From Telopea speciosissima (taxonomy: Eukaryota; Streptophyta; Magnoliopsida; Proteales; Proteaceae): a DNA stretch of 64,000 bases. The translations under genes were made by a program, and so were the position numbers. Of this stretch, positions 9,410 to 51,100 are shown piece after piece. The notes under the pieces are model-generated. The model saw only the letters and a program-made list of their open reading frames with translations. It was not told the DNA's origin and did no database searches. The number at the start of each line of letters is the position of its first letter. Position 1 is the stretch's first letter. Location of the stretch: assembly GCF_018873765.1 (NCBI RefSeq), contig NC_057918.1:11540862-11604861 (forward strand), written 5' to 3'.

Positions 9410-11139
9410 TAAAAGGTCAATTTAGTTTGGTTAGAAGGGGAATGTGATGATTCATGTTGAATCCTAGATAATTCTGTCTTCAGGATCTCTGAATGCCCAA
9501 CCTATTGAGTTAATCTTGATTGCCTTTAGAGCTTCCGTCAAAGTTCAACTTGGTAAATTTAGGTGGCAGAGTTGACCATTACCTTTGTCAGTAGCCCAGC
9601 GGTGGAAAAATCTTGTCTTCGCTTCTTGTCTCTTATTTTCCTCCCCTCTATATTTTGTTCTGTATCAAAAGATTGTGCTTTTTGGGCAGCAATCAATTGA
9701 CCGTCGTTGCATTTGCCACGATCTTGTTTATATCTGTGATGTCTATACTAGCTTGCTCATATTCTTTTTTGTTTTTTTAGGGGGGGGGGGGGGAGTATTG
9801 GTAATCATTGTCAAAACTTGGTATGCTGGAGAAAAATCCCCCCTCTCTTACTGTTTCTTCTTTCTTTATCAAATAGGAGTTGATCAATGCATTTTGATAT
9901 TGTCGTTGAATAAAAAAACAGTTGTGCTTTCTAGAAAGGAGAAGCACCCCTGCTTTACGCATGCATATCTCTTAATTGGTTAATTTGCTGCTGATTGTTG
10001 AAGTGTTGATTAATTTGATTCATAGTTTGCACCAGTTTCATGTTTCAGCAAAGTGTTAGAACATTTGTCCTGCAACTTTAATATTGACATAATGTGTTCG
10101 TTGTTGATATATATAATGTATACCATGATATTTAATTCTAGTTATTTTTACATCCTTTGAATTATCAATTATGCAGCATTTTGTAGTTATTTTTTTAAAC
10201 GGATTTTAATAACACATTATGACCCTCCCCCGACTCCGCAGTGGCAGGAGCCTCGTGCACTGGGTACTTCCTTTTTTTTATTATTAAATGGATCTTAATA
10301 ACACATGTAAACCCATATTTACCATTTCTCTTAGATGTTCAAAGGCAAGAAAGTTTGCATTGTATGCTTAATCTCATGATTGTAGATACCTAAACCTCAG
10401 TAGTTTTGCTTGCACTGTTGGGCTTCCATTTGTCATGTTTCTTATATTCACTTAAAACATCTCTGATATGGCTACTAACACATCACCCAAGGATTGGGGC
10501 TTAGGTGCTTTGTCTTTCACATGCCAAAATTTCCTGTGTACATGTGCAGGAGATTTGTAGACTGTGATGCAAGTATATCATCATTTGTGTTTTGAGTGAT
10601 TTTATTTATATTGAATAATAATGCTTGACATAAAGTGGATATAGCCTCCATTTTTACTTTGACACCATACATTTTCCATCATATGAAAAATAATGGAGGG
10701 TCAAGCCTCGGTCATGCTTGTTCAATCTGTCACTAGCAATGATAAAGTTATGCAAAGTTAGTGGATGAAATGGAAGCAGATGCTGTAAGCTGCCAGATTT
10801 TTTTCTTTTATTTTTGCTCTTCACTGAAGATCTGTGTAAATGACAATGTGCTCCACTTAAGATTCCCTTCGTCTTGACAAAAATACCTCCTGGAAAATAA
10901 GTTTTAGTTTTTCGTAAAATTTATTTTGTATTTGTTTGCCATTTGTCATTCTCCTCATTGATTTTACATGATTAGGAACCATGTTCAGGAATGGTTGATT
11001 GAGGCAAAGAACATTGTCATATTTTGGCATGGTTCTTAGATGGTTATTTGTGAGAGTGCTACTTTAGCTGCCAAGTATTTAATCTCTTTTGCATTTGAGA
11101 ATTTGTTCTCCTGATATGCTCAAACCACTTTGGACTCAG
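9410..11139 (+). other. 3' part of Cullin-3 intron 1, with SINE 3' fragment
   Basis: No coding exon is seen. Positions 10213-10279 match the 3' part of the Au-like SINE family in this window (CTCGTGCACTGGGTAC then a T-run), on the plus strand and lacking the tRNA-derived head. A run of 13 G residues starts at 9781. The segment ends in a polypyrimidine-poor but valid acceptor, CTCAG (11135-11139), directly before the Cullin-3 exon. Confidence 0.5.
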
Positions 11140-13180
11140 GAATGCTTACAATATGGTGTTGCACAAATATGGAGAAAAGCTGTATTCCGGACTTGTGACA
11201 ACAATGACGATGCATCTAAAAGAAATATCCAAATCTATAGAAGCTGCTCAGGGAGCTTTGTTTCTGGAGGAGCTGAATAGGAAATGGACAGACCATAACA
11301 AGGCATTGCAAATGATCCGAGACATACTAATGTATATGGACAGGACTTTCATTCCCAGTACCAACAAAATACCCGTCCATGATCTCGGTTTGAACCTATG
11401 GAGAGACAACATTATCCACTCTCCCAAGATCCAGACAAGGCTTCTCAATACACTTCTTGAGCTTGTGCACAGAGAACGGACTGGTGAAGTTATAAACCGG
11501 GGGTTGATGAGGAATATAATCAAGATGCTAATGGATTTGGGTTCATCTGTTTACCAGGAAGACTTCGAGAAGCCTTTCCTTGAGATATCTGCCAATTTCT
11601 ACAGCGTTGAGTCTCAGCAGTTCATCGAGTGCTGTGATTGTGGGGATTACCTGAAGAAAGCTGAGAGACGTCTAAACGAAGAGATGGAGAGAGTCTCCCA
11701 TTACTTGGATGCAAAGAGTGAAGCCAAGATAACTAGTGTGGTAGAGAGGGAGATGATTGCAAACCACATGCAGAGGTTAGTCCATATGGAGAACTCAGGC
11801 TTGGTGAACATGCTGGTGGATGATAAGTATGAAGACTTGGGGAGGATGTACAACTTATTCCGCCGGGTACCTGATGGACTCTCTACAATTAGAGACGTGA
11901 TGACTGCTCATATTCGGGAAACTGGTAAGCAATTGGTTACTGATCCTGAGAGGTTAAGGGATCCTGTGGACTTTGTCCAGCGGCTCTTGGATGCAAAGGA
12001 TAAACATGATAAGATAATAAGTTTGGCCTTCAACAATGACAAGACATTTCAGAATGCTTTAAATTCCTCCTTTGAGTACTTCATTAATTTGAATCCTCGG
12101 TCTCCGGAATTTATTTCCTTGTTTGTGGATGATAAGCTTCGTAAAGGCCTGAAAGGTGTCAGTGAAGAGGACGTAGAGATTGTCCTGGACAAGGTGATGA
12201 TGCTCTTCCGTTACCTGCAAGAAAAGGATGTGTTTGAGAAGTACTACAAGCAACACTTAGCAAAACGACTTCTTTCAGGCAAAACTGTCTCGGATGATGC
12301 AGAAAGAAGTCTCATAGTTAAGCTCAAGACAGAATGTGGTTATCAGTTTACTTCCAAATTGGAAGGCATGTTTACAGACATGAAGACCTCTCAGGATACA
12401 ATGCAAGGGTTTTATGCTAGCCAGGCTGCTGATACTGGGGACTGTCCTACACTGGCCGTCCAGGTCCTCACAACAGGGTCATGGCCAACTCAACCAAGCT
12501 CCACGTGCAATCTGCCAGCTGAGATTATGGGAATGTGTGAAAAGTTCCGAGCGTTTTATCTAGGGACCCATACTGGGCGGCGATTGTCTTGGCAAACAAA
12601 CATGGGCACAGCAGATCTGAAAGCAACCTTTGGGAAGGGCCAGAAGCATGAGCTGAATGTGTCCACATACCAGATGTGTATACTCATGCTGTTCAACAAT
12701 TCTGACCGCCTGAGCTATAAGGAGATTGAACAAGCTACAGAGATACCAGCCTCAGACTTAAAGAGGTGCTTGCAGTCACTGGCCTGTGTGAAGGGGAAGA
12801 ATGTTCTTAGGAAGGAACCCATGAGCAAGGATATAGGCGAGGATGATGCCTTTTTCTTTAATGACAAGTTCACAAGCAAGTTCTACAAGGTAAAGATAGG
12901 CACAGTAGTTGCACAGAAGGAGTCAGAGCCAGAAAAGCAAGAGACCCGGCAGAGAGTGGAGGAGGACAGGAAGCCCCAGATTGAGGCTGCGATTGTGAGG
13001 ATCATGAAGTCAAGGAGGGTCCTGGATCATAACAACATTGTTGCTGAAGTCACAAAGCAGTTGCAGTCACGGTTCCTGCCCAACCCTGTTATAATAAAGA
13101 AACGGATTGAATCCCTTATTGAGCGGGAGTTCTTGGAGAGGGACAAAGTAGACAGGAAACTGTATCGGTATCTTGCCTGA
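11140..13180 (+). CDS. CUL3: Cullin-3 (CUL3), last coding exon
   Basis: Cullin-3 is the scaffold of BTB-CUL3-RBX1 ubiquitin ligases: BTB adaptors bind the N-terminal cullin repeats and RBX1 binds the C-terminal cullin homology domain. The exon reads G-NAYNMVLHKYGEKLY through to the canonical cullin ending KLYRYLA. Cullin-homology signatures are visible: EKDVFEKYYKQHLAKRLL, AERSLIVKLKTECG, LTTGSWPTQ, LGTHTGRRLSWQ. The winged-helix segment ends in the NEDD8 acceptor motif IVRIMKSR, with the lysine at about residue 619 counted from the first Met (11153). There are no stops or frameshifts in 679 codons. Plant CUL3 genes typically have a first exon of about 54 residues ending just before NAYNM; that exon is absent here, so the feature is 5'-partial and the Met at 11153 is internal. 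The acceptor CTCAG at 11135-11139 matches the expected exon junction. Confidence 0.93.
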
Positions 13181-17549: not shown

Positions 17550-17558
17550 TTAAATTTA

Positions 17559-17871
17559 GGGTTTTTTTCACGTATCTCCCCTGAGGTATCACATAATTAC
17601 AAAAACACCCCTCAGTTTTGGAAAATTCTGCATGCCCCTCTGAGGTTCTTAAAAGTTAACACATGCCCCCATTCCGTTAGTGTAGGACTAACAACGTTAA
17701 AAACAAGGGGTGAACTGACAAAAATGCCCTCATCTTCCTCAAATCGTTTAGGGTTTGAAAAAAAAAAATCTGAAACTCATCTTCCTCAAAACCTGCAACC
17801 CGTCTTCCCCAAACCTGCACATCACTTCCCTTTCTCCTTCCATTTCTGAAACCTAATCTAATTAAAACCCT
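17559..17871 (+). repeat. Left long TIR of the Pack-MULE
   Basis: These 313 bp are inverted relative to 19126-19415. Shared words include CCCCTGAGGTATCAC, CCATTCCGTTAGTGTAGG, CTAACAACGTTAAAAACAAG and GAAACCTAATCTAATTAAAA. The left copy has about 23 extra bases near 17790-17815 from a short internal tandem duplication around the 'cctgcaacccgtcttcc' stretch, which accounts for the length difference. Confidence 0.85.
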
Positions 17872-17965
17872 TATGTTTATTACTTCATGGTAGATTTAAA
17901 AATTAAGAACACCTAGAGAAGAACTAGAAAGCGAGCAGGAAGTTCGGAAGTTCAGGATTCTAACA

Positions 17966-19125
17966 ATGGAGTATCCACTCACCATCGGTGAGAACCCATA
18001 CATCACGCGGGCTTGTAAGCTCGGAGGAGCCAACAGTTTTCTATGTCATGAACGATTCAAATTCAACTCTTCCATTCGACAGAAGAGTCGGCCACGAGAA
18101 ATTAGGGCTGAGAAGCAGCAAGCCCGAGCCAAAAAATGGCTCTCCTCCTCCAACGAAAGCAATTGGAATTTGATTTCTGAAGCTTGTATCGAGTGTTTAA
18201 GACGCTTTAATTTCCCTTTAATACTGGTTTCTGGAATCAGTAGCATTTACTTGTTCAGCTCCAATCTCTGCTCAGAAGCTCATGTAAATCAAATTCCTTT
18301 ATTTGGATCTGCTGCTTGTGAAGATGTTTCCAATCACTATTCCCAATTTCCCATGCTGAGAAGATAGAAGGGGAAGCACTAAAGAAAGAATTGCAATCTA
18401 TCATCTCAAGTCATCATCAATCCTTATCCTACAAAGAGGTATGGGAAGCACTCAAGATTCTTGATGCTTCTGATGTTGATAATCCTTACGATTCATCAGA
18501 GATAATTGAAATTTACTCCATGAGAACTGCATCAAAATCCATAGCAGGAAAACTGGAAGGATGGAATAGAGAACATCTGTGGCCTCGTTCTTATGGCCTA
18601 ACTCATGGCCCATCTTTAACTGATTTACACAATATTCGTCCAGCAGATGTGAACGTAAATTCATCTAGAGGAAACAAATACTTTGGAGAATGCCTCAGGA
18701 ACTCAATCGATTGTGTGAAGCCAGCAAACAAGGAAGCTGCTTTTGACACTGAAACAGTTAAAGAGAGATGGGCACCACCTCTTCAGGTTAAGGGAGATGT
18801 TGCAAGGGTAATAATGTATATGGCTGTACGTTGTGGGTTTCATCAGGTGGATGGAAACCCTATCCTTCATCTTTCAGATTCACCAAGCATTAGAAACAGA
18901 GAGACGGGTTTGCTTTCAACATTGTTGAAATGGAACAGACTTGATCCACCATCAAGAACTCAGTTGAATGAACAGAGGGCTCTTGTGCTTTACAAGCCAA
19001 TAAACAAACCATTAATGGAAATCACCATGAACTCGGTTTTGGCAGAGATGGGTTTTGAAAGAGGGTCCATGTTTCAGAAATGGAAGATGGATTTGGTTTT
19101 GGGATTAGATGGAGAAAATGGGCTG
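17966..19125 (+). pseudogene. Captured endonuclease I (EndA-like) copy, frameshifted
   Basis: The first frame (17966-18366) gives a plant-type N-terminus with a hydrophobic segment (FPLILVSGISSIYLF) and ends CEDVSNHYSQF. A second frame is open from 18352 to 19197 and continues HAEKIEGEALKKEL. It carries the endonuclease I core: WNREHLWPRSYG (catalytic Glu-His pair), DLHNIRPADVNVN and SSRGNKYFGEC (conserved Asn and RGN). The family makes secreted or organellar non-specific nucleases using a ββα-metal fold. Near 18339-18354 the sequence TTCCCA occurs twice eight bases apart; that near-tandem repeat explains the frame change. After about PPSRTQLNEQR the family C-terminus is lost, and from 19126 the open frame reads into the right TIR. 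No introns are present. I call it a broken captured copy; translation of the intact second frame cannot be excluded. Confidence 0.75.
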
Positions 19126-19415
19126 AGGGTTTTAATTAGATTAGGTTTCAGAAATGGAAGGAGAAAGGGAAGTGATGTGCAGGTTTGGGGAAGATGAGTT
19201 TCAGATTTTTTTTTTTCAAACCCTAAACGATTTGGGGAAGATGAGGGCATTTTTGTCAGTTCATCCCTTGTTTTTAACGTTGTTAGTCCTACACTAACGG
19301 AATGGGGGCATGTGTTAACTTTTAAGAACCTCAAGGGGGCATGCAGAATTTTCCAAAACTGAGGGGTGTTTTTGTAATTACGTGATACCTCAGGGGAGGT
19401 ACTTGAAAAAAACCC
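19126..19415 (-). repeat. Right long TIR of the Pack-MULE
   Basis: These 290 bp are inverted relative to 17559-17871. The C-terminal residues of the open frame ending at 19197 (RVLIRLGFRNGRRKGSDVQVWGR) are TIR-encoded, so they are not part of the nuclease family. The repeat ends GAAAAAAACCC directly before the duplicated TTAAATTTA. Confidence 0.85.
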
Positions 19416-19610
19416 TTAAATTTATTGTTTTAAATTTTTTTTTTCCCTTCTAATTTTCTCCACTTCCTGATTTTTATAGTTCCATGTTTCTAGATTATTT
19501 TCTGCAAACCAGTCTGACCAGTCAACCAAGCAGAACCGGAAATGGTCTCATTTTCAGTTCAGGGTCCAGCTTGGATTATAATTATAATTTTAAATTTTTT
19601 TTGAACATTT

Positions 19611-19790
19611 AGAGGGTGGACCTTGGTGCAACAGTAAGATTGCTCCGTTGTGACCAAGTGGTCACGGGTTCGAGTCTGGAAACAGCCTCTCTGCAAAAAC
19701 AGGGGTAAGGCTGTGTGCATTATGACCCTCCCCAGACCCTGCAGTGGCGGGAGACTTGTGCACTACCATTCTAATACTTCTCTGTATTTT
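19611..19790 (+). mobile_element. Au-like tRNA-derived SINE
   Basis: The element starts near GGGTGGACCTTGGTGCAACA, with an A-box-like TGGTGCAACAGT and a B box GGTTCGAGTC at about 19666-19675. After the tRNA-like head come blocks typical of plant Au SINEs: GGAAACAGCCTCTCTGC, AGGGGTAAGGCTG, GACCCTCCCCAGACCCTGC and GCGGGAGACTTGTGCAC. No clear target duplication was found. Related copies or fragments lie at 10213, 36501 and 38505. The tRNA-like head is not a functional tRNA gene. Confidence 0.75.
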
Positions 19791-20379: not shown

Positions 20380-21135
20380 CCCAAGCCCGGGTAAAGGAGG
20401 GTTAGTGCTCAGGCTGGCACCCGCCATTGTAAAAACAGTAGCCAACCCTTTTGCATGAATACTAGAACATTACATTTTCAACCATATGCTAGGGCATCCC
20501 CAGGAAGTGACACATTGCACTATGATCCAGGTGTTATGAACAGCGTCAACGTGCAATGGTTAGCTAGGGCGTCCCCTGCAAGTGACGCACTGCTTTGGCG
20601 TCCCAATGTTGTGACAAATGGGCAAGGGTTCTCGCACCATGGACAAGTGCTGGTAAAGAAGCTAGTCCAAAAGCATAGGATTAGATTAGCATCTTGGAAC
20701 ATAGGAACTTTAACGGGGAGAATTTAGAATTGATAGATATAATGAGAAGAAGAAAACATAGCTTGTATACAAGAGACTAGGTGGAAGGTAAAAAAGCTAA
20801 GGAATTAGATGACTACAAACTTCGGTACATTGGGGATAAAAATAATACTAGTGGGGTGGGAATAATAATAGATAAAGAGTTAAAAATGATGTTGTACATG
20901 TTAAAAAAAATGGAGATAGGATAATATCCAACCAACTTGTGCTAGGAAAAGAAGTAATGAATATAATTAAAGCTTATGCATCCCAAATAGGATTGGATGG
21001 AAATACTAAGAAACAATTTTGGGAACACGTGGATAGATTAGTTCGAGGAATTAGTCAAGGGCCCATAAAAATCCAACTGTTGCCACATGTTATGTTGCTT
21101 GGAATAATACTGGGAAAGAGATGTCTTGTTTGGTA
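20380..21135 (+). pseudogene. 5' part of an RTE-type LINE
   Basis: Positions 20455-20727 encode a leader with a repeated ARASP-SD motif followed by RLASWNIGTLTGR, the start of an RTE apurinic endonuclease domain. After stops and frameshifts the trace continues as KAKELDDYKL, GVGIIIDKELK and, near 20990, the IISAYAPQIGLD-type block, here IIKAYASQIGLDGNTKKQFWE. The reverse transcriptase is absent. It ends where minus-strand copia sequence begins, so it is truncated and dead. Confidence 0.65.
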
Positions 21136-27200: not shown

Positions 27201-30200
27201 TGAAATAGCATACTCTGATTGCTTTCGCCATAAAAAGTATTCAAGAATCTGCATTGGATCAGTTTGAAGTCGCATTTTGCTATCAAGCCAAATAGAAAAC
27301 CTGAAAACAACAGAAAACCGATGAGCTTTTTTTTCTAAATTGAAACAAGAAAGAATTTAAAATTAACAAAGTGCAAGACTCTTGAGCTACAAAGAACTAT
27401 CTAGCCTTGCACTGGACTACTGGAGCAGATGGGCCGCCAGGTACCAGCATTTGGTGGATACCAGATTATACATGTTCGATAGTAAACAAGCAATACTGGA
27501 TGCTTGAAATGAGTGGTCCCATTACATTCACTCATACAATCAAAATACAGCACAGAGAAACATTTAGATGTTGGCTATGACCAGATATGCTTCACTTACA
27601 TCCCTTTCAGTCCCTCCTTGTGTGGTCCTTTTTTCCAGAAGTTCATGGTAACAATCATGTCATTTTTAGTTGAAGTTCTTATGTATCTAACTAGGCCAAC
27701 AATAAACAAACAAGACTACAAGAGTGTATACGCATCTTACCTAGCAGATGGGAAGAGTCGGTGTGACAAGAACTTTGGCACCTTTCCAGTTCTCCGCATG
27801 TCTGTGTAGGGTAAGTTCCTGACTATAACTATTCTCCATAAGCCAATGTACCCATCATCATTAGGAACATGTCCTTCCAAAGAAAGTTCTGCCATAGTTT
27901 GCTCATCCAGAAATATAACAAAACAAACATTCTTCTTTGAATAGTCGCTGATCTGAAATAAACAGAAGGTAATAACATTATACAATAATACGAAGAAACT
28001 GTTTTTTTTTTTGGGGGTGTTGTACAGAGAAAGTGCCAAATGAACATTGTATGGTTCTGTCCTGACATACAGAAATCAATTATAAATTTGAATAAAAAGA
28101 AAGTTTAGGAAATGGAAAACAATCAGACAGAAACTCTCAGCCAAGTAGAAAGACAAGTTTGGCACAAGCTATGGAAAACATAAATTGGCTGATCATCCAA
28201 AAGAGAATTTCAATAAATGCTAATAGTAACATACTAACAGCAAGTTGCGCCCTAGGCCACCAGGCTGAGGGCATGCCTGCCTGGGCGTCACGCATCGCGT
28301 CACCCACCCTCTCCTCTCCGACAATGCCCCCCTCCCCTCCAGCAGCCCCAACTGCTGCCTGCCCCACCCACATCCCCTGCACCATCCACTTCTCCTCCAT
28401 CCAGCCCTGTCCATGATCAATGCAACCCCCCTTCCATTTCTTGGAGCTCCCTCTACCAGCAGTTCCTCTGTCACCACTGAAAGACACTCCCTTCATTTCG
28501 TCCCTCCTTCCATCGTCGATGAGTCCAGAGTTGGCTTCTGCCCCAAGGGTCTGCTAGACGACGAGCTCTCCAAATGGCAGTGCTGCCTCGTGGGCCATTT
28601 CCTTGGTGCCTGTCCACCCTTCCATGTCGTCAAATCCTCTCTGCAAAAACAGTGGCGTGCTGCAGGGGTTGTCTTCACCTACCTGCTGTCCAGCGGCACC
28701 TTTATCTTCAGGTTCTCCGATGAATCCGACAAAACTCGAGCTTTGGAGGGTGGCCCATGGCAGGTTGGCAAGAAACCGATCTTCCTCCAGCAATGGGATC
28801 ATCGCTCCTCTCTCTGCAAAATCGACCTTAAGTCCATCCCCATCTGGGTCAATCTGCCTGGTCTTCCCTTCCACTATTGGTGTGCCTCTAGGCTCAGTAT
28901 CATCGGATCGACCATCGGCAATCCTCTCTTCTCCGACGAACGCACCAAGAAAATGGATCGACTTTCCTTTGCTCGTATCTGCGTCGAAATCAATGCAGAT
29001 GACCCTCCTCCAGATTATGTCACCATCCAGGAAGAAGATGGCCACTCCTTCTCTCAAAGAGTTGTCTACGAGTGGCTGCCTCACTACTGCTCCGTCTGCA
29101 AATTGTTCGGTCACCCATCGAAGCAATGCTTCCCTGGTCCTTTGGGTACTAAGGCTTATTCGAATCCATTGACTTCAGCTTTGGGGCCTTTGGTTGAGGA
29201 TGCTACCTGTGTTGATGTCCCTGCAGCAGCAACGCTGGCTGTCGATGAGGAGGAAGACGATGTTGCTGTAACTGTGGATACCCCCTGCGCCTCCGCCGCT
29301 GTTACGATTGGTGATCAGTCGATGGTGGCTTCCGTGGCCGGTAAACCTTTGGAGTCTGAAGGTTCTCCGATACTCTCCCGTGGTCGGAAAAAAGAGAGGA
29401 ACTGTCACCGGAAAAGCCTTTGTGATTCCGATGAGGTTCCCATCCATGGCGAGTCGTCCGATGCCCACCTACCACGCAGAACTTCTGACACTGACCACAA
29501 GAGGTTCGCAGTCCTACAAAGCCTCAACCCTCGTGCCGACTGTGAAGTCCCTGTCACGCTTGCTCCTCCCGAGCCCTGGAAGAACTATGGCACTGATCTG
29601 CAGGCTCCTCAATATACATGTAATTAAAACTATCCTGATTTGTACAATACAATTCTATGTACTGCGCCATTGTGATAAATTTCTTCGCCCAACTCTATCT
29701 CATTTTCTTCTTCTTCAAGGTCCTTCAAATCATGAGCTCTGTTATGTCGATTGGTTTGGGTTCCATCCGGTTGAGATTGTTTTGTTTTATCTTGTCAGAT
29801 AGTTCTTAATATATGGGCAGATTTTGAGGTACCCAGTGGGTGCATTGGGGGTAAAGGGATCTAGGAAAGCACTCAGACCTGGTTTCAAGGAAGTTATAAT
29901 GGGTTGAATGGATTTCACTTTCTTTAGGAATCTTCCCTTTATCATACCCTTTATCTCTATCACTTCTTCAATGATTTCACAGTATCGTAACAGTTATTGG
30001 CCAGTGATATCTATTTAATTTCTTAGTTCCATCCATGGTAACAGAGTCTTTGATGAGATGCATTTCACCAGTATTATGGTTTCCAATGGCAAGTTTGAGA
30101 ATAAGTCCCAAGCCAATAGTTTATGTGGTCGACTAGAGGGAACTCAGGAAAGTGATCAAAACCTTCTTGATATACCTAAATAAGGCCCATCAATACTAGT

Positions 30201-33200
30201 ATGGCACGTGGCAAACCCACTACTACATGGAGCAACCCCTAACCCATCAGGTTATACTTACACAGCATCCAACTGACCCAAATCAGAAATCCTATTCATG
30301 TGAGGATACGATCCCCACATAGAAGGGAGAGTACACACCCTAATCCTAATATGACGCTGCCAACCAGTAAGCATAGTCCAAAAGGAAACAAGATCTTCCA
30401 CCGATCAATATGGAATCTCCCATTATTGGTGGACTCTCCAGCTATTACTCTCCTAACAGGACTCTTACCTTAATAAGCTCAGTGTGGAGCACAAGACTCA
30501 TCGTCTCCTGGTGAGGCACAACCTCAGCCTATCTTGGTAAATAAATAGGAGGCCTACGGGTCAGGTTCCATCCGGAAGGATCAACTAAAGGTTTCTTGTA
30601 CACCTTCCCCTTTTGTTAACCCAAACCAAACCTTTTCCTCTGATAACCAAACCCCCACCTCGCTTTCCATGAGGTCCACAGTATCCAAAATCAAACATTT
30701 GCCCTTTCCACGTGTCCCATTTAATCACCATTCCCAAAATTTTGTCCCATCTCACTTTAACCCTTCCTCTAATAAATCAACTTCTCAGCTTGACCCGACC
30801 CAACAGCCCACCCATCTAACCCATTTAACTTCTTCCAAAGCCCCTTACCCATCTCGGCCGAACCTTGAGGAACCAGTTCCTGGTCCACCAACTGGTTCCA
30901 CCAAGGTCCACCCCCCTTCCTCCTTGTTTCTTCCCTCCCCCTCCTAGCCTCTGGTTTGCTTTCCCCCCTTGAGAGAGTATCGCCTGCGGCCCCGTAGTGT
31001 TCCCCCGGGGTCTCAGGTTAGTTCCACCTCTGGTTGGCTGCCCCTTCCCCCCCTTTACTTATGATCCCTTGGACCATTTGGAATGTCCGCGACCTTAATG
31101 CCCCGGCCAAACAAGCTGAGATCCGCGCCCGAATCAAATCCTCCAATCCCTCCTCTGCTGCCTCCTTGAAACGAAGGTTATTGAACCCAATTCGTCTTGT
31201 ATTGCCTACTCTCTTGCCCCCTCCTGGTCCTTCCTCTCCACTATACCCACTCTCCTAATGGCCGAATTTGGATTCTTTGGGGTCCCTCCAAATTCCATAT
31301 ATCCGTCTCCTCTTCCTCCCCCCAATACCTTCATCTCAGCATTTCTGACCATCTTCACAATCATCTTTTCTTTTTCACCATGGTTTACGCCTTTAATCGT
31401 CACTTGGATAGGCTCCCCCTTTGGGACGACATCCGTACCATTTCACTGTCCGTGGGCTCCGTCCCTTGGGGCATGGGAGGCGACTTTGATGTCGTCCGTT
31501 ATAGTCATGAAAAGTTGGGTGGTTCCCCCATCGACCACCAAGCTGTAGATGCCTTCAATTCTTGTCTCGAGGATTCTGGGCTAAACGACCTCAGATGGTC
31601 GAGTGCTGATCTTTCTTGGCACAATAAGCGCTCGGGCCTCAATAGAGTAGCTTGTAAGCTTGACAGAGTCCTCGTCAATGATCCTTGGCTCTCCTCCCTT
31701 CCTTCCTCTTATGCCTTCTTTGACCTCTCTGGCCTCTCAGACTACTCCCCCATCTCTCTTTTTGTCCTCCCTTTCTTATCCTTTGGCCCCAAACCCTTCA
31801 AGTTTTTTGACATGTGGTCCTCCCATCTTGGATTACTTCCTATTGTTCAAGCCGCTTGGGATAATCCTACCCAGTCCTTCTCCTCCCCTCTCCTCACCTT
31901 CTCTAAAAAACTCAAAAATGTCAAATTGGCCCTCAAATCTTGGAACTCCTCCACTTTTGGAAACATCTCCTCCCGTGTCTCCTCTTGTCGTGACACCCTC
32001 TCCTCCATCCAATCCCACCTTCAGTCCGACCCTCTCAACTCCTCCCTCGCTGAGAAAGAAATCCTTGCTGCCTCCGAGCTGTGCTCCTCTCTCTCCCAAG
32101 AAGAGAGTTTCCTTAAACAAAAATCCCGGATTAAATGGCTCGAGCTTGGCAACTCGAACACCGCCTTCTTTCACTGCTCCCTTAAAGCCAAATCCAACTC
32201 CAACTCCAACTCCGTTCTCTCTCTTACTACCTCTGATGGCTCGGTTCTTTCCTCTGTGGATGCTATCAAATCCGAAGTTGTGGCCTACTTCACTGGTATC
32301 TTTTGCCCCCCCTCCACCACGCAATCCACCCTCCCGGATGACCTAATCAACAAATTCGTCCCTTCCCACCTCTTCAACTCCCTTTGCTCCATCCCCTCTA
32401 ACTCTGAGATTGTCTCTGCTGTTCGCTCCCACAAGGCTAGTAAAGCTTCTGGCTCAGACGGGTTCAGCATGGGTTTCTTCTCCACTTGCTAGGATATCAT
32501 CGGTGCTGAGCTTATTAGTGCCATCAAGAGCTTCTTCTTTAACCCCCACCAGATCCAAAGCATCAACCACACCTTTCTTTGCCTCATCACCAAGTCTTCG
32601 GGAGCCTCATCCATGCCTGACTTCAGACCCATCTCCCTCTGTAACCTCCTCTATAAGTTCATTGCTAAAATTCTTGCCAACCGCCTTCAACTTGTCATTG
32701 ACTCCCTTGTCAGCTCCAGTCAGTCTGCCTTCATCTCTGGGAGAAGCATCTCGGACAACATCATCCTTTGCTAGGATATTGTTCGAGGCTTCGACCGTAA
32801 ATCCCACTCTCCTTCAGCCCTTTTGAAAATAGATATCCACAAAGCCTTCGACTCCATCCGTTGGGATTTCATCTCCCAAGTCCTTCTAAAGATGTCCTTC
32901 CCTCCCACCTTTGTTAACTGGATCCATTTCTACATCTCCACCCCTCGCTTCTCTGTCCTCCTCAATGGCAGCCCTGCTGGATATTTTCCCTCCTTTGTTG
33001 GTATCCGCCAAGGTTGCCCCTCTCCCCCTTCATTTTTTGCCTTTCCCTTGAGGTCCTCTCTCGTAGTATCCAATCCAAAACCGACCTCCATCTCATCTCC
33101 CCCCATCCCCAAATGCAAGCCTATTAACTTGACTCACCTTGCCTTCGCTGATGACCTCATGATCTTCTCCAAGGCTGACCCCCTCTCCATTGAGTCCATC

Positions 33201-36200
33201 ATGTCTTCCCTTCACCTTTTTCAAGGCCTTTTCGGTCTTTGCATCAACCTCCTCAAGTCCCAAATCTTCCTTGTTGGTGTTTCTGATACCACCACAACGT
33301 CCCTCTCCTCCATCACCGGCTTTTCCCTTGGCACCTTACCTGTCCGTTAGCTTGGCCTCCCCCTCATCCCTGCTAGACTTTCAGCCCACCACTGTACCCC
33401 CATTCTGGACCTCCTCCGTAGAGGCTGCAGCTTTGGAAAGCCAAGCTTTTATCCTATGCAGGTCGTCTTGAGCTCATCAGATCGGTGCTTCAGTCCTGCT
33501 ACATCTATTGGAGTGGTGTTTTTGGCCTTCCCAAGGCTACCATCAAGGCTGCCGAATCTATTATGTGTGCTTTCCTATGGAAAGGCGTGGATTCAGCCAG
33601 GTTCCTTCACCCCAAGAGCTGGTCTTCCATTTGCATCCCCAAATCTGAAGGAGGTCTTGGTCTCAGAAGGATTAAAGATGTAAACATTGCTGGTTCTATC
33701 AAGTTGTTATGGAAGCTCCTCACCAACAAATCCAGCATCTGGACTACTTGGGTGTACGCTGGACCTCTCCGTAGAGACTCTATCTGGATTGTTAGCTCAG
33801 TGACAAACTCCTCCTGGGTTTGGCGTAGAATCCTCCAAGTGAGGCATATAGCCAAGGAAGCTATATCTTGCAGGATCGATGACGGTTTGCAGACTTACCT
33901 CTAGCTTGACAAATGGCACCCTTCCGGTGTCCTATCTTCCCTTGTGAGCCCCCGTGACATCTATGCTTCTGGATTGGACAAATCAACCCTTGTGGCTTCC
34001 ATCATCAGCAGAGGCTCATGGTCCCCCCCTCTCCCCCCTCCCCTCGCAGATCTTTGGAGCTCCCTCCCCCCTATCCCCCTTGGTCACCGAGGTAGAGGTG
34101 ACACCATCTTGTGGCTCCCCTCCCCCTCTGGAAGATTCAGTTCCCACTCCGCTTGGGACATAGTTAGACATAGAGGGACCCCCTGTCCTTGGCATAAAGT
34201 ACTCTGGTTTAAAGGGCACATCCCTCGACATAGCCTTACCGCTTGGCGTGCCCTAGCAAACTACCTCCCAACCCAAGCATTCCTCATTCATCGCCACATG
34301 TAAGTCTCTCCCAGCTGCTGCCTTTGTTGGAATGGGCATGAAGATGCAGATCACCTGTTCTTCACTTGCCCCTTTGCTTCCTCCATTTGGAACTGTGTTC
34401 TTCGCCACTGTTGGCCTGCTCGCCGAAGGCCTCTTTCCCTTTCCAAGGAATGGGTTTGGATTGATATGACGTTTGGAGGCAACTCAATTTGTGATTTGGT
34501 TGGCAAGATTGCCTTTTGTGCCACTATCTCCCACATTTGGATGGAGCGTAACCTTAGAAGATGGACGTCCAACTCCCGCTCTTTCGACAAGATTTGGAAG
34601 ACCATCTTTTTTTATGTTTCATCTAAAATTAGTTCCCTCCCCCTTGTTGATGTAAAGGATACCCCGAGGAACAGGCTCATTGTCGTCTCCTGGGGTCTTC
34701 CTATATCCTTTTTGCACCCTAGCTAGTCTCTAGCTTCAGTTTTGTTGGCCCTTGGGCTTGTATATTCCCTCTCCTTTCTTCGTAATTAAATTTTCATTCA
34801 TCCAAAAAAAAAAAAAAAAACATACTAACAGCAATGACAAGCTAATCACATTCCAGGTGTAAACCAATTTTCACAGGCTAACCAGCTAACAGCTATTTCA
34901 CCTCCCAAGAAGAGCACAAGAATACTGAATACCCAAAAATAAACTAGGTAACAAACCTTCAGAAACTTGAGAAAGAGATAATGGTCATGTAAATGCACAT
35001 TAAGATTATATAAACTCAAGACATGATTCAGCCAAATTCTGGGGGAGTGGGAGATTTCAAGCTTGAATTAACATGAAAAGAAATACAATATTAATATAAA
35101 TATCAACAATGAATCCGAAAGTTCCAATCATACAGTATGTAGCAGCTCATTCCAAATGATAGAGAAAGATAGATATTGCTATAATGCTTTTCTTTAAAAT
35201 TAATCTAATTCAGAGAACCTAATAAAATATAAACCCACAATCATCTAGTTTTGACTCATGATTTTACTTTGAAGCAAAAAGCAAGAAACAGAATATTCAA
35301 GTGGAACAAACAGTGGAGGAACTTCAACTAGAAGTACAATATACAACATACATTCATCACAGAGAGAAAAGAAAGAAACAAAAGTACAATATACATTTTA
35401 TCCGAAGATCTTAAATAAGAATACCCCTTAAAACCACAGCTAATAGAAATTATTTTCAGAAGATGGCTCAGATACCTTTTTGCTTGTTGGTCTCCTCAAA
35501 AAATCAGAGCTTCCAAAAATGCATGATGATACCACAACGCGGCAGGTATTCATGTACTCCTTATCCTTTTCATATAAATCAAATCCAGTGGTCGGGGATC
35601 CCTCTGGTCCTTTAACAAAACCACAATGAATTGTTTGATTTCTTGCATAAAAGGAATTCTCTCTTTCTTCAAGAGTCTGATGTCCTCCAAATCTGGGTTC
35701 AAACTTATGATGCCCGTAAGTTATGTCCTCTCTTTCTATATATCCTAGGGTAAACTGAGTAAAATTCATGTACTCCTTGGGCTCCACTAGTTCATCGACG
35801 GACTCCACAAGCCCAACATCACAAGGAAAATCTGGAAGATCCAATATAAGAAAGTAAAAACCATATAATCATAAGTTAGCCATATAGAATGACTAAAACT
35901 AAATTCATGGGTAACATTGATGCAATCCCGGGTTAAGGAACCTAATAACGACCATAAGATTGATAAGTTACTCAAATTAAATGATTAATGGCAGTTTCAT
36001 AAAAATCCAAAACAATTTAGGAACCTTTTAAAGAGGTGAACAGAATTTGGGGGTAGCAAAATAATTAGTTTAAATGAAAAGGGCGAGCATGAATTTCAGA
36101 AAGAATAGGATAAGTTGAACACAGTTCAGAAAAGGGCTTTTATGTTATTACAAGAGTCAAGGTCTTATGTGCAATTAAGAAGAATTAGTCCTCTTCTTCT

Positions 36201-44072: not shown

Positions 44073-45161
44073 AAAGGTATACTTTTTCCCCTTTTTCTAC
44101 ATGAAAGGGAAAGGTATAGTTTAGTGGGAAATAAGGCCCGTTTGCAACGTTCTTTTAGAATATTTTTTAAGAATAATTTGGGAGTGGAATTAATTTTATG
44201 TTCAAATGAATCAAAATGGTCCAAATGAATTGAACCGGTTTGATACGATTTCTATTTCGATTTCAAATTGATTTCATGAAATAGTTAACAAATACAATTT
44301 TTTTTATCAAAAAATTGAAATTGTTTTGGTTTCATCAATCTGAAATATTTTAAAACATATGAAGTATATTTTGTAGTTCAATTTTTGAAAATATATTCTA
44401 TATATTTTTTTGGTAAAGGGTGGTGGTGGTGGCAGGGCGATAGTGATAACGGTGGTGGTGATGGTGGCAAGGTGGCAATGGTGGTGGCATTGGCTGTAAA
44501 GTAGTAGTAACGGGGTGAACTGGTGATGGTGAGATCAAGAGAAAAAAAAAGGTGGTGTTTTATATTTAATTTGAAATTACTATTTTACCCATCAAATCAA
44601 TCGTGTGTTTATTTCAGAAATTATTTTTAGTTCTAAAATTGAAACATCTCCTCATTTATTTTAGAATTTCTATTTTATTTGATTTTTAATTCAAAAATCA
44701 AACCAAACAATTTCTAAAATAAAAATCGCCCTGAAATTGAAATAGAAATCATTAGGCGACACCACAGCCGTGAGCCCGTGATTGCCCTAATTCCTCGAGT
44801 CACACTGCCTACTGTATTAACGAACCGGGAAACCAAAAAACGTCCTCTGTAAGCTTTCAATCCAGAGGTTTGCTCCTTTCTTTCTGCTCCCTTCTTACGT
44901 CGCCGCTCTCTTCCTCGCTTCCTAATAGGAAGTGGAGGAAGAGCCACACCGGAGAAATTCTTCCCCATTGTCGGGCTCGAGTGAACTTGCAAGAAAGAAG
45001 AAATTTCGTCAATAAAAGATCAGAGTAATCACTTCGACCAGGTGAACATTCAATCTCAGCCTGTCTCTCCTCCGTTCCATTTAACAGTGCTGAATCTAGG
45101 TAAGCTTATTTATCTCAAACTGTAGCTCAAGTTTTTCAGATTGAAGCCTGGAGGAGTTAGG
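44073..45161. promoter_or_regulatory. Shared divergent upstream region of DUF616 and THADA genes
   Basis: The two genes point away from each other from here. 44100-44760 is AT-rich repeat-like sequence beginning near AAGGCCCGTTTGCAACGTTC, with a GGT-rich minisatellite (44416-44495). 44760-45060 is GC-richer with CT-rich stretches, as in a plant 5' UTR/promoter. No TATA box or start site can be assigned with confidence. A minus-strand frame here (44992 down to 44714) looks non-coding. Confidence 0.4.
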
Positions 45162-48100
45162 ATGTCTGCAAAATGGCGAGCTTTGCAGCACCGGCACCGG
45201 TGCACTTACAGCGCTGTGATATTCCCTCAGTATTACATCGACTCCCTGAATGAATTGCCTTCGGATATATCTTCTCTAAAATTCTTTACTGAACTGAAAG
45301 AGTTGATCTCTCTAAACTCGACTTACTCGCAAGTTGAATACGTAAAGAAAGTCAGTTCGTCTTTTGGAGAGTTGCTAAGCATTAGTGGAGATGTTGTAGT
45401 TTCAGAGGCAGCTCGGTTTTATTTGGAGGTACTGTTTCTTGAGAATTCTCAGCCGTTGCACAGAACTCTAGTTTCTGTTCTCGCCAGACCCCGTGATCAC
45501 CAGTCCCTAATTGGAAGTTGTCTCCGATCGCTGTGTGATGAATATGGTGTTTTAGGTTCGAAAGGAAAGAGATTTTCTGTATCTCGTGTGGCGCTGTCGT
45601 TGATGAGTTGCCCTAAGTTGAGCTTTTTATTGGAAATCGTGGAGGAATGCTCTGTTTCGGTAGCTTTGGATGTAGCTTTTGGTATGAATGCTGTGGTTTC
45701 CGAGATTGAAGTTGGCTCCCGGCCTTCACCCATTGTCATGGAGCAATGTCAGGAGGCATTGTCTTGTTTATATTACTTGCTTCAGCGCTTTCCCTCAAGG
45801 TTTACTGATCCCGGATGTTGCCGAAGAACTCTAATCCCTGAAGATTCGACCATATTTGAGATTGTTATGAAATCAATAATAAGAATATTGAAATCACCAG
45901 CCTTTTCAAGGGATTGCTGGGTGGCCGCAGGTGTGGGTTTCTGTGCTGCTCTCCAAGCGTGTATGAATCCTCAAGAGCTTGCTTTGTCTCTAGTTAAGCT
46001 TTTTTACCATCAGACTAGATGTTCAATTTCTGGTTACGAGGATGAATTCAGAAGTTCAGATTCCGGGTTACCTTATATAGGATTTCTATGTTTGGAAATC
46101 AAGGAATTCTCAGTATTGAGTAGGCTCTGCTTGCTGAGGGGAATCCTTACTGCAATTCCACGGATGGTGCTCAATACCCAGTTTATTTTATCAAAGGATA
46201 GTGTAAAGGATTTAAATTTCCATGGTACTAGGAATGACTTGATTTGGACCATACTGTTTGATGGGATTTTGCCTGAGCTATGCAGTTATTGCGAAGATCC
46301 CATTGATAGCCACTTTAATTTCCATGTCTTAACCGTTATGCAGATCTGCTTCCAACAGATAAAAACCTCAATACTAGCCGGACTTGTCAATCGGTCTGAA
46401 AATTATGACCCACTCCCTGAGAACATGGGAGCTCGAATATTGAGAATAATATGGAATAACTTGGAGGACCCTCTGAGTCAGACAGTCAAACAAGTTCATC
46501 TCATTTTCGATCTTCTTCTAGATATTCAATCCACACTTCCTTTGGCGGAGAGGAGCGTGGGAAGGAAGTCCTTCTTATGGAAGACTGCAGGGGATCTTCT
46601 TCGTCTAGGGTCGCGTTGCAAGGGAAGATATGTTCCTTTAGCTTCTCTTACCAAGAGGTTGGGTGCAAAAACTCTTTTAGACATGAGCCCAGACTTACTG
46701 TTTGAAACGGCTCATGCTTATGTGGATGATGATGTGTGCTGTGCTGCCACAACGTTCTTTAAGTGCTTCCTTGAATGCTTGCGTGATGAGTGCTGGAGCA
46801 GTTATGGCGTTGACAGAGGGTATGTAACTTTCAGAGGGCACTGCTTACCTCCTGTTCTTTATGGACTTGTTTCTGGAGCTTCAAAACTCCGTTCTAACTT
46901 AAACACTTATGCACTGCCTGTTCTGCTTGAAGTTGATGTGGATAGTATATTTGCAATGCTTGCTTTTATCTCAGTTGGGAGTGGAGATAAAACTGAAATG
47001 GTTTATCCCGAGCTTGCTGGTTGTGACAAGGATTTAATGGTTGACCAGCAAGTAGCTGCTTTGGTTTCATTAATGAAGGTATCTCGCTTGCTTGCACTGA
47101 TAGAAGGTGACATTGATTGGTACCATGACTCTTCAGTGCTTCAGGAAGAGGATGGTCTGGAAACAGAAGGTTGTGACCTTTTTGCGTTTGTTTGTATCAA
47201 GGGAAGAAAGGTCAAAATCATTGTGGAATGGCTAGTGCTGGCATTGACCCATGTTGATGAAACACTCCGTATTGATGCTGCAGAGTCTCTCTTCTTGAAC
47301 GCTAAGACATCTACTCTGCCTTCTCCTTTGGAACTGAGCCTAATGAAGGAAGCGATGCCCCTGAATATGCGGTGTAGCTCAACGGGCTTTCAGATGAAGT
47401 GGACCAGCTTGTTTAGAAAGTTCTTTGCTCGGGCTAGGACGGCATTGGAGAGACAGTTTAAAGAAGGTCACTGGCAGCCGCTAGGGTGCTCAGGCAATTA
47501 TAAAGTGGACCAAGATAAGGCAAACAAGGAAAATGTAGCTGATAGAGCTCAGAATCTTTTTCATTTTATGAAGTGGTTAAGTTCCTTTCTATTTTTTTCT
47601 TGTTATCCTTCTGCGCCATATGAGAGGAAAATTATGGCCATGGAGCTCATCCTGATAATGATCAATGTCTGGCCTATAATACCTGATCCGCAAGGTATGT
47701 GTAGTTCCATATCTCCTGCAACCTGTCTTTATCCCTACAGTGAAGGGTTCACGCTACCTGATTCAACTTTATTGTTGGTTGGATCAATAATCGATAGTTG
47801 GGACAGACTGAGAGAGTGTTCTTTTCGGATACTTCTAAATTTCCCTACCCCACTTCCTGGCATTTCCAGTCAAGACACAGTCAAGGAAGTGATTACATGG
47901 GCTAAGAGGTTGGTATGCAGTCCACGTGTCAGAGAAAGTGATGCAGGTGCCTTGACTTTGCGGCTTATATTTAGGAAATATGTATTGGAGCTTGGCTGGC
48001 GAGTTGGAGCTTTAGTTAACACTGTTCCTCATAATTCACAGTACAAACTGATTAATGGGGATACACAAATTTGTAAATCGAAATTCCCTGTGATAGATTA

Positions 48101-51100
48101 TATACTATCCTTGATTGATTGGTTGCATTTTGCTGTGGTAGAGGGAGAGAAGGACCTTTCTGAAGCATGTAAGAACAGCTTTGTTCATGGTATATTGCTT
48201 ACGCTTCGATACACTTTTGACGAGCTGGATTGGAATTCCAATATTGTTTTGTCCAGCAGTTCCGAGATGAAGGTTGCACTGGATAAGCTACTTGAGCTGA
48301 TCATGCGGATAACTTCGTTGGCACTTTGGGTGGTATCTGCAGATGCATGGTGTCTCCCTGAAGACATGGATGATGTGGTTGATGAGTCTTTTCTTTCGGA
48401 TGCACCAGTTGAAATGGATGTAGCTATGTCTTCCCCGGAACTTCAGGTCAATAATTCAAAGCTTGTGGACAATGTCAAACAATCAGAACAGATTGTCATG
48501 GTTGGTTCTTGGCTTGCTATGAAAGAGGTACAAATTTTATTTTTTTTACTCTGGTGGATTCCATCTTTCCTATATTAATCAATTTTGCTGACATTTACTT
48601 GGTATACATTGCTGGGTAGTAGCTGAGATCCATTTTGAAAAGCGATGACTAGAGATCGGATTTTAGAGCTTTTAACTTACGTCTGTACTTTTACTTTCCA
48701 GTTTAAGTTTTGAATTTCCACCGGAGAGAAAAGGAATATAAAAATTAAAAAGAACAATTTGTGCATGCCCAGATAACTTCAGTTTTTTTATTTAACAAAT
48801 GCAGAACGTTAATGGAGAAATGGTAATTTTTGTTCTTCAGGTGAGTCTTCTCCTGGGAACCATCATAAGGAAAATACCTTTGCCGAGTAGTGCTTTTTCA
48901 GATTCAACTAAGCACAGGGAACCTGTTTGTGAAGCTCGTGATGTACCACTAGTTACAACATCTGATGCAATGCTTAACATTATCCAACTTGAGAAAATAG
49001 GGAATCATTTCTTGGAAATCCTTTTGAAAATGAAGCACAATGGTGCTATTGATAAGACACGGGCTGGATTTACAGCTCTTTGCAATCGTCTACTTTGTTC
49101 AAATGATCCACGGTATATTTCAATTCATGCCTTTTGAAATCAGTGCATCTTAAATATATATATATTATTTCTTCAATGGATGCTCTATCAAGTTTGTTTT
49201 AATGACCCCAACATAATGTAGTCCTAGATAGGTAGGAGGCCTACTAGGAGCCAAACAACAAGATCAAATAACAAAAGGGGTTGCTGGTTCGAATGGACAG
49301 CACTAGGATTTAGGTCAATTCCTAGGGTTAGGGTTGGATATTGGGAAAGGGGTTTATAGGGTATTAATGGGCAGGTCTAGGGGGTCAATATGGTATAAAA
49401 ATAATAGGATTTGGGAAGGTTTTAAAATTCTGCAGTTCTGGACAGAATTGTGTTGCAGGTTTTGGGTTTTAATGGAGTGAAGGAATGGAGGGGATAAAGT
49501 GGGAGTTTGGGGCTGAAACTTGGATCGAGTGTCAACAATGATGTAAGGGATGTATGCTGAAAGTTTGGTTTGAAACTGATGGACAGATTTGGAGTTATGG
49601 AGGTTTCCTAGTAGAAGTAGGAGAGAGGGGTAAAACTGTAATTTCAGACAATCGGCTGGGTGGATGGTGCTGAAATTTGAATCGAGTCTCTCTTAGGGTT
49701 TGAGAAAGACTTGATCAAATTTTTAACAGATTCTAATGGTTAGATTTGGCTGGGCAGAATTCTCACGAAAATCACCTTGTATGTGACCTTCTAGAAGGAA
49801 GAAGAATAGTTGCAGAATTTCTTACTTGTTACAGGTCTTCAATGGCAACAACTTTGAAGATGAACAATGGGGTCTCCCGATCTTCACAATGCAAGGAGAT
49901 AAGTAGCAGCCCTCCCGATCTTCACAATGCAAGGAGTCGATTGGAGATCCACCAATCCCTTCAACCTTGATATTACTCACAAGGCACACTCACGATGGAG
50001 CTAAGGCAGCAAGCATAAAGCTAATTTTTATTAATCAAATTCGTATACAATGCTGGCCTCCCTTACAAACTTATATAGAAGACTCAAAAATAGACTTAGA
50101 CACTAAAAAGGAATGGCCTAACCTTATCCCTAATCTATTAGGCAACTTAAACTGACTAGGAAACTCAAATAGACTCAAAATAGAGTCCTAATGACTTAAA
50201 ACAACTTAAACTACTTAAAATAAAGAAGATTCCCTAGTAGCCAATAGGATATAAGAACCTCTTAGCCAATAGGATCACTTCACTTAAATTAGACCAATTG
50301 AACCAATTGGATGCAACCAATTTAAACCGGCTCAATTAAAAACACACAATAAAAACTAAGTATTGGGCTAATCCCGTATGCAACCTATGTACCCCTATTT
50401 TAGGCCCAGAAAAGTGGCCTATTACATTAGAAACCCATGGGATCAAAGGCCCAACATGTATGTAACCCAACGCTAGACTTATTTCTAATGAAACAAGCCC
50501 TATTTGGTGATGAATCTGCATCACAACATGTCTCTGATTTCCTGTATCGTCATTTTCCTTCTTTTTTCCCCCCTTCTTTATGGATTGATTTTAGTGTAAA
50601 GAATAGAAAGAATGAGAAGCAAACTGAGGGGCATAGGCAAACCCATGGGACTACATGATGCAATACAAAAATTGAAAAAGGAGACTGCAACTGTGCAAGT
50701 AACGCTACATAATCAGAAAGGAATACTTGGCCCAAACAAATCCTAACCCTTACTATCCCATGCTTTGCAAGGTCATCCTCTATTTCAGGTTTTCATTAGT
50801 TGATCTTCACTTAGTTTAGTCTATCTAGGACTTCTTATTGCCTTATGGTTTGTAGGAGTTTCCAACTTTGGTTTGTCTTTAAGTTCCTTGATTGTTTGGG
50901 TGTCTTTCTTAATAATTGAGTTAACTTAGAATTCTACCAAAGGTAGCCAACGACTTAGGAGCATAGTTCGAAAAATCATCTCGGAGGGCCATTTCGGCCA
51001 GACCGAAATTTCCAAGTTTTGGGTTTTGCCTCTTTTGTCTCTCTTCTTTCCCCCCACGATTTCTCTCTCCCTTCTCTCCTCTCTCTCTCTCTCTCTCTCT

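Follow-up and report, generated by a model that had tools for sequence, protein, structure and literature searches.

Positions 17550-19424 of a 64,000-nucleotide stretch of Telopea speciosissima DNA (C3:11540862-11604861; 'the window' means this whole stretch) hold nuclease-coding sequence between inverted repeats. Is this a mobile element with a working nuclease gene, a source of transcripts acting on a related gene, a resident gene beside chance repeats, or a gene fragment carried as a passenger? The evidence given below makes it very probable that the element is a non-autonomous Pack-MULE with a captured fragment of a host endonuclease I gene, its frame broken and its copies drifting as passenger DNA. 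The genome searched comprised 822,943,500 bases in 1287 contigs.

Structure of the element and its insertion site

The ends of the element are formed by the following features.

17550..17558, no strand: left target-site duplication (TSD) TTAAATTTA, the same letters as 19416-19424
17559..17871, plus strand: left terminal inverted repeat (TIR), 313 bp, beginning with GGGTTTTTTTCACGTA, from self-alignment and the genome family
19126..19415, minus strand: right TIR, 290 bp, from alignment to the left TIR
19416..19424, no strand: right TSD TTAAATTTA, the same letters as 17550-17558

The TIRs align with 7 mismatches in 298 columns and two gaps, of 23 bp and 1 bp; this alignment includes part of the TSD, and the 1-bp gap sits at the TSD edge. 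In a genome search with the left TIR, the right one was hit with E=1.4e-123. Pack-MULEs are characterized by long TIRs (100-500 bp in the part of PMC3310237 available to us), a range that includes both TIRs seen here, and by a target duplication of 9-11 bp, which at this locus is an exact 9 bp. They also lack an internal transposase. Seven ORFs of at least 50 aa are present inside the element; a Pfam scan of the two longest found no transposase (ORF 2, described below, gave PF04231 alone above the cut-off), and the other five are of 55-86 aa. The flanks are single-copy, with two genome matches that are both the window locus itself, and a search of the genome for a related empty site was negative, as the joined flanks matched the window locus only.

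The preliminary description had proposed TIRs of roughly 300 bp, an exact 9-bp target duplication, the absence of a transposase and, on these grounds, a Pack-MULE; the structure bears it out on all four, and the Pack-MULE identity draws further on the 9-bp TSDs of related elements, the parental gene elsewhere and the single-copy flanks.

Some neighbouring features of the window were observed as well. Beside the element, 19610-19760 resembles an Au-type SINE; a short ORF at 20455-20727, ending with RLASWNIGTLTGRI, is similar in look to the start of a LINE endonuclease and gave no Pfam match at E 0.01. The stretch 28269-33350, with a higher GC content (0.48-0.50) and ORFs with DUF4283 and reverse transcriptase, is probably a LINE-like element. 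Host genes lie at 11099-13180, with a cullin frame of 692 aa that is uninterrupted, and at 45126-56207, with THADA/TRM732-type frames.

The TIR family and its other cargo

Searching the genome with 17559-17871, as had been proposed, revealed further family members: a 37-base TIR core had 57 genome matches at up to 3 mismatches, while the reversed control had none. Considering TIR pairs with matches that begin within the first 20 TIR bases, we obtained 17 pairs from 38 merged stretches. An exact 9-bp TSD no more than 2 bp from the predicted ends was seen in four of the 17 pairs (the window element counted) and a 9-bp TSD with one mismatch in seven more, one of them (C11:51179251) an A-run that we distrust. 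The resulting 11 of 17 pairs (10 without the A-run) are a raw count with no random control; two of them, with similar flanks on C11, may go back to a single event. In the other six pairs, a nuclease-carrying copy on C4 among them, no TSD was seen at the ends.

Several members carry pieces of other genes. The element at C8:15990490-15992343, bounded by the exact 9-bp TSD TAATAAATT, holds a fragment of a thiamine-pyrophosphate enzyme (PF02775, E=3.9e-27; PF00205, E=1.6e-16), which resembles acetolactate synthase. We also observed that the stretch adjoining its right subterminal sequence recurs in members on C2, C11, C10 and C3. Leucine-rich-repeat fragments are present at C11:36034196-36035634 (PF00560, E=3.3e-11) and C4:21454891-21456172 (below the Pfam cut-off), each with an exact 9-bp TSD. 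A 4.7-kb relative at C11:412399-417082 shares with the nuclease element the left subterminal sequence (75% identity across 48 bp) and a 63-bp part of the right one; its cargo is a different one.

This 4.7-kb relative was considered as an autonomous partner and rejected, its listed ORFs being unlike a transposase; its interior has four ORFs of at least 80 aa, and the one that was scanned gave no Pfam match. Among 150 scored PF10551 matches (of 827 candidates) none was within ~10 kb of a listed TIR place, as judged by eye, and no autonomous partner with this TIR was found among them.

Origin of the nuclease sequence

The nuclease sequence belongs to PF04231, endonuclease I, which we take to be a family of bacterial-type secreted nucleases. 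Inside the TIRs the element is composed as follows.

17872..17919, plus strand: MULE left subterminal sequence, split by the 13-bp parental word ACTTCATGGTAGA at 17882-17894
17920..18967, plus strand: captured fragment, the 5' leader and parental residues 1 to ~341 of 419, from alignment to the C10 gene
18964..19125, plus strand: MULE right subterminal sequence, joined to parental sequence at a TTGA microhomology

A search with the nuclease segment, suggested earlier as a way of finding the parental gene, located a likely parent on C10: 17920-18967 aligns with C10:58662137-58663198 (minus strand) at 90% identity across its whole length, with no intron. The C10 locus is an intronless open frame of 419 aa that contains the whole PF04231 domain (profile 2-235 of 235, E=1.5e-37); among the 138 scored of 153 candidates, no other stop-free relative outside the window matches the greater part of the domain. 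Its domain has 41-46% identity to bacterial relatives among the best 80 loci. No TIR match was found around it in the ~1.5 kb read on either side; the C10 gene is thus a parental copy outside MULEs of the host-gene fragment that a Pack-MULE should carry. A retrocopy would look the same as other ways of capture here, as the captured part of the parental gene contains no intron.

Two further places, C1:71317240-71318851 and C4:1086676-1087620, contain the same nuclease hybrid, bordered by the same subterminal sequence on the left and on the right, so that the genome holds at least three copies (40 of the 118 candidates of the DNA search were scored). Both further copies are decayed. They have lost ~270-290 bp, the WNREH motif included; the C1 copy also has a nested insertion of ~600 bp and a truncated left end, which places it outside the TSD test, and a TSD of 8-11 bp with at most one mismatch was looked for at the C4 copy and not found. 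Compared with the C10 gene, all three copies have in-frame indels (18, 3, 9 and 3 bp). Because these are common to the three, the donor could be other than the present C10 gene; it may have been a paralogue since lost, or that gene in an older form.

One could still read the locus as a resident nuclease gene with repeats beside it by chance. We found no point in favour of this; the TIR family, the TSD, the parent on another contig, the single-copy flanks and the occurrence of TIR-flanked relatives of this hybrid at other places all speak against it. Within this genome the resident-gene reading is refuted by the TIR family, the C10 parent and the single-copy flanks, and we give it next to no chance.

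Capture junctions

At the right junction the parental CAGTTGAGAA meets the MULE subterminal TTGAATGA at TTGA. Right subterminal stretches, 84-96% identical over at least 57 bp, are shared by many members of the family that carry other cargo, and in elements carrying unrelated cargo the right subterminal sequence starts at the same point or a few bases off. At the left edge, a 74-bp query matched four places in the genome: the three nuclease copies and the 4.7-kb C11 relative. In the parent the 13-bp word abuts and overlaps the captured fragment, whereas in the window copy 25 bp separate them; the C11 relative has the MULE sequence around the word minus the word's last 9 bases. A 13-bp match was reached in 1 of 2000 single-base shuffles of the MULE stretch and in none of ~3000 random stretches of the window.

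The TTGA microhomology, together with the interleaved parental word, suggests that the junctions arose by repeated template switching during gap repair. Models of this class are discussed for Pack-TIRs in the available part of PMC8277862. Most likely, a gap within an ancestral element was repaired by copying from the wrong template, a host endonuclease I gene resembling the intact single-exon C10 gene, and the element thereby gained the 5' leader and roughly four fifths of the coding sequence. On the left side the polymerase would have switched from MULE to gene, back to MULE and again to gene; on the right side it would have passed from gene to MULE at TTGA. The hybrid then reached at least three places (the window on C3, C1 and C4), presumably by means of a transposase made elsewhere and supplied in trans, with the window copy entering single-copy DNA and producing the 9-bp duplication.

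Reading frames and the nuclease domain

Would the captured sequence still encode a nuclease? Three features of the window copy are of importance.

17966..18367, plus strand: ORF 1, 133 aa, the parental N-terminal leader with a hydrophobic stretch, then a frame-shifted end
18345..18352, plus strand: 8-bp frame-shifting insertion relative to the parent, from alignment to the C10 gene
18352..19197, plus strand: ORF 2, the nuclease domain, which lacks the conserved C-terminal block and continues into MULE sequence

The 8-bp insertion parts the leader from the nuclease frame, so that the uninterrupted PF04231 frame of a working gene is not present; ORF 1 gave no Pfam match at E 1. The first bases of the insertion remain at the edge of the C1 deletion (the C4 edge ends just before them), and since they persist in the C1 copy, the insertion predates the split of the C1 and window copies. 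The frame was thus broken before these copies separated, and their later changes would be drift as passenger DNA. We also observed 8-bp length changes relative to the parent at 17938-17953 and 18337-18353, which both resemble 8-bp tandem duplications, that at 18337-18353 being altered; either hAT excision footprints or slippage could account for them.

ORF 2 matches PF04231 with E=1.3e-26 over profile positions 2-221 of 235 (94.2 bits against a cut-off of 25). Its frame is open from 18322; the first in-frame ATG, at 18520, starts a product of 225 aa that covers profile positions 71-221 of 235 only, and the residue at this ATG is leucine in the parent. Both named motifs, WNREHLWPRS and DLHN...SSRGN, are present. 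The C-terminal block RN...YQHNRNPF.DHPE, kept in the parent, is replaced in the window copy by MULE sequence, although its Y and P still match; the ORF 2 tail consists of ~53 codons of MULE subterminal sequence and 23 codons of TIR.

Among 80 bacterial relatives 105 columns are at least 90% conserved; the parent agrees with 74 of them and the window copy with 58. Seventeen conserved columns kept in the parent are lost in the window copy: four within captured sequence (S59T, D136V, Y161C and the loss of a Glu at ~203, in ORF 2 numbering from 18352), 12 in the C-terminal block and one a loosely aligned column in the tail. The 12 block columns are 80/80 in the bacterial relatives, except for one His at 74/80. 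At one conserved column, V150, it is the window copy that agrees and the parent that differs.

As to the earlier reading, the nuclease-coding segment between the TIRs is genuine by its PF04231 match. The catalytic motifs, called intact, are so for the two named ones, but the copy is without the C-terminal block that the family conserves. The proposed C-terminal fusion to TIR-derived sequence holds for 23 codons, the further ~53 being MULE subterminal sequence. The mobile nuclease ORF exists as a nuclease domain frame but not as a whole copy, the insertion at 18345-18352 splitting the frames.

Selection on the copy

Between the window copy and the parent there are 31 nonsynonymous and 21 synonymous changes (dN/dS ~0.49); in the 3' half dN/dS is 0.38 (p=0.005). 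Changes were polarised with the C4 copy over 733 columns. Those private to the window copy were 10 nonsynonymous to 3 synonymous, against 3.01:1 expected (p=1.0), a small set of 13 changes in which the stretch absent from C1 and C4 cannot be polarised. Changes common to the window and C4 copies, which include the parent's branch, were 12:10 (p=0.044), and the private and shared ratios did not differ significantly (Fisher p=0.28). For the C1 copy, the first contiguous part was compared and the part behind the nested insertion was left out.

The private changes in the window copy look neutral, though they are few, and the signal of constraint most likely stems from the parent or predates capture. 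The pairwise dN/dS values could on their own point to constraint; we rejected that of 0.49 as a sign of function, as it fits a constrained parent and a neutral copy.

Is the nuclease copy functional?

The coding possibility is that ORF 2, as 225 aa from 18520 or as something longer, is a chimeric, altered nuclease under selection, the longer product arising through splicing or from a start codon other than ATG. Its long ORF, the retention of both named motifs and the low pairwise dN/dS in the 3' half would agree with this. On the other side, the ATG product is devoid of profile positions 1-70 and of the C-terminal block, the start codon stands where the parent has Leu, the private changes, 13 only, are at the neutral ratio, and the first motif is deleted in both other copies. 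We consider such a protein highly unlikely. The frame break, the lost block and the neutral look of the private changes likewise speak against a neofunctionalising mobile nuclease, which the preliminary description had put forward as a possibility.

The other possibility is regulatory: transcripts of the element would give rise to small RNAs acting on the C10 gene, much as the preliminary description had suggested for the parental gene. A stretch of ~1 kb that is 90% identical to the parent, in sense orientation relative to the left TIR, is consistent with it, and the available part of PMC8277862 holds small-RNA and 5'-UTR roles of Pack-MULEs possible. From the letters of the genome we would rate this unlikely. 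The chance is similarly small that either the truncated nuclease-MULE fusion is expressed or a transcript regulates the parental endonuclease I gene; if one of these were true, it would be a lineage-specific invention of Telopea speciosissima.

Thus the nuclease copy of the window is most likely a passenger fragment rather than a working mobile nuclease, because the frame is broken, the C-terminal block has been lost and the substitutions private to this copy, few as they are, look neutral.

Comparison with known elements

MULEs with captured enzyme-coding sequence are represented by KI-MULE, also called Kaonashi. The gene captured there codes for a protease (available part of PMC8277862); the cargo of the window element is a nuclease, truncated and with a broken frame. 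A second comparison is with tomato PM-ZIBP, a multicopy Pack-MULE family with 14 copies of a zinc-ion-binding-protein fragment (PMC3310237, in the part available). The two have in common long TIRs, TSDs of ~9 bp, a host gene fragment, a parent elsewhere and several copies; unlike PM-ZIBP, the window element carries a nuclease fragment, in at least three copies of which the other two are decayed, and has a single TIR per end, whereas the same part of that source gives tandem TIRs in 13 of 14 PM-ZIBP copies.

As to the domain itself, the WNREH and DLHN motifs are those of the endonuclease I family (Vibrio-type 1ouo/1oup, with relatives in Bacillus and Actinobacteria; four PDB sequences at E 0.0009-0.0016), from which the window copy differs in having neither the conserved C-terminal block nor a continuous frame.

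A search of the literature by title and start of abstract, with many subscription papers outside its coverage, found no nuclease-carrying Pack-MULE, nor was a match found for plant PF04231 endonuclease I. The available text of PMC8903248, on Pack-TYPE transposons, names no nuclease among captured genes, and the term 'pack-mule' was not found in the main text of PMC4053705, on sacred lotus, as far as available. The Pack-MULE class is already known, and the nuclease cargo is without a published report in the literature searched.

As a 'mobile nuclease' the element is of little importance. It is of value as a clean case of gene capture, for which a likely parent is at hand, the junctions can be read and at least three copies exist. 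A 13-bp parental word between two MULE stretches bears on how Pack-MULEs acquire genes, and a TIR family with several captured gene pieces makes this genome usable for testing models of capture.
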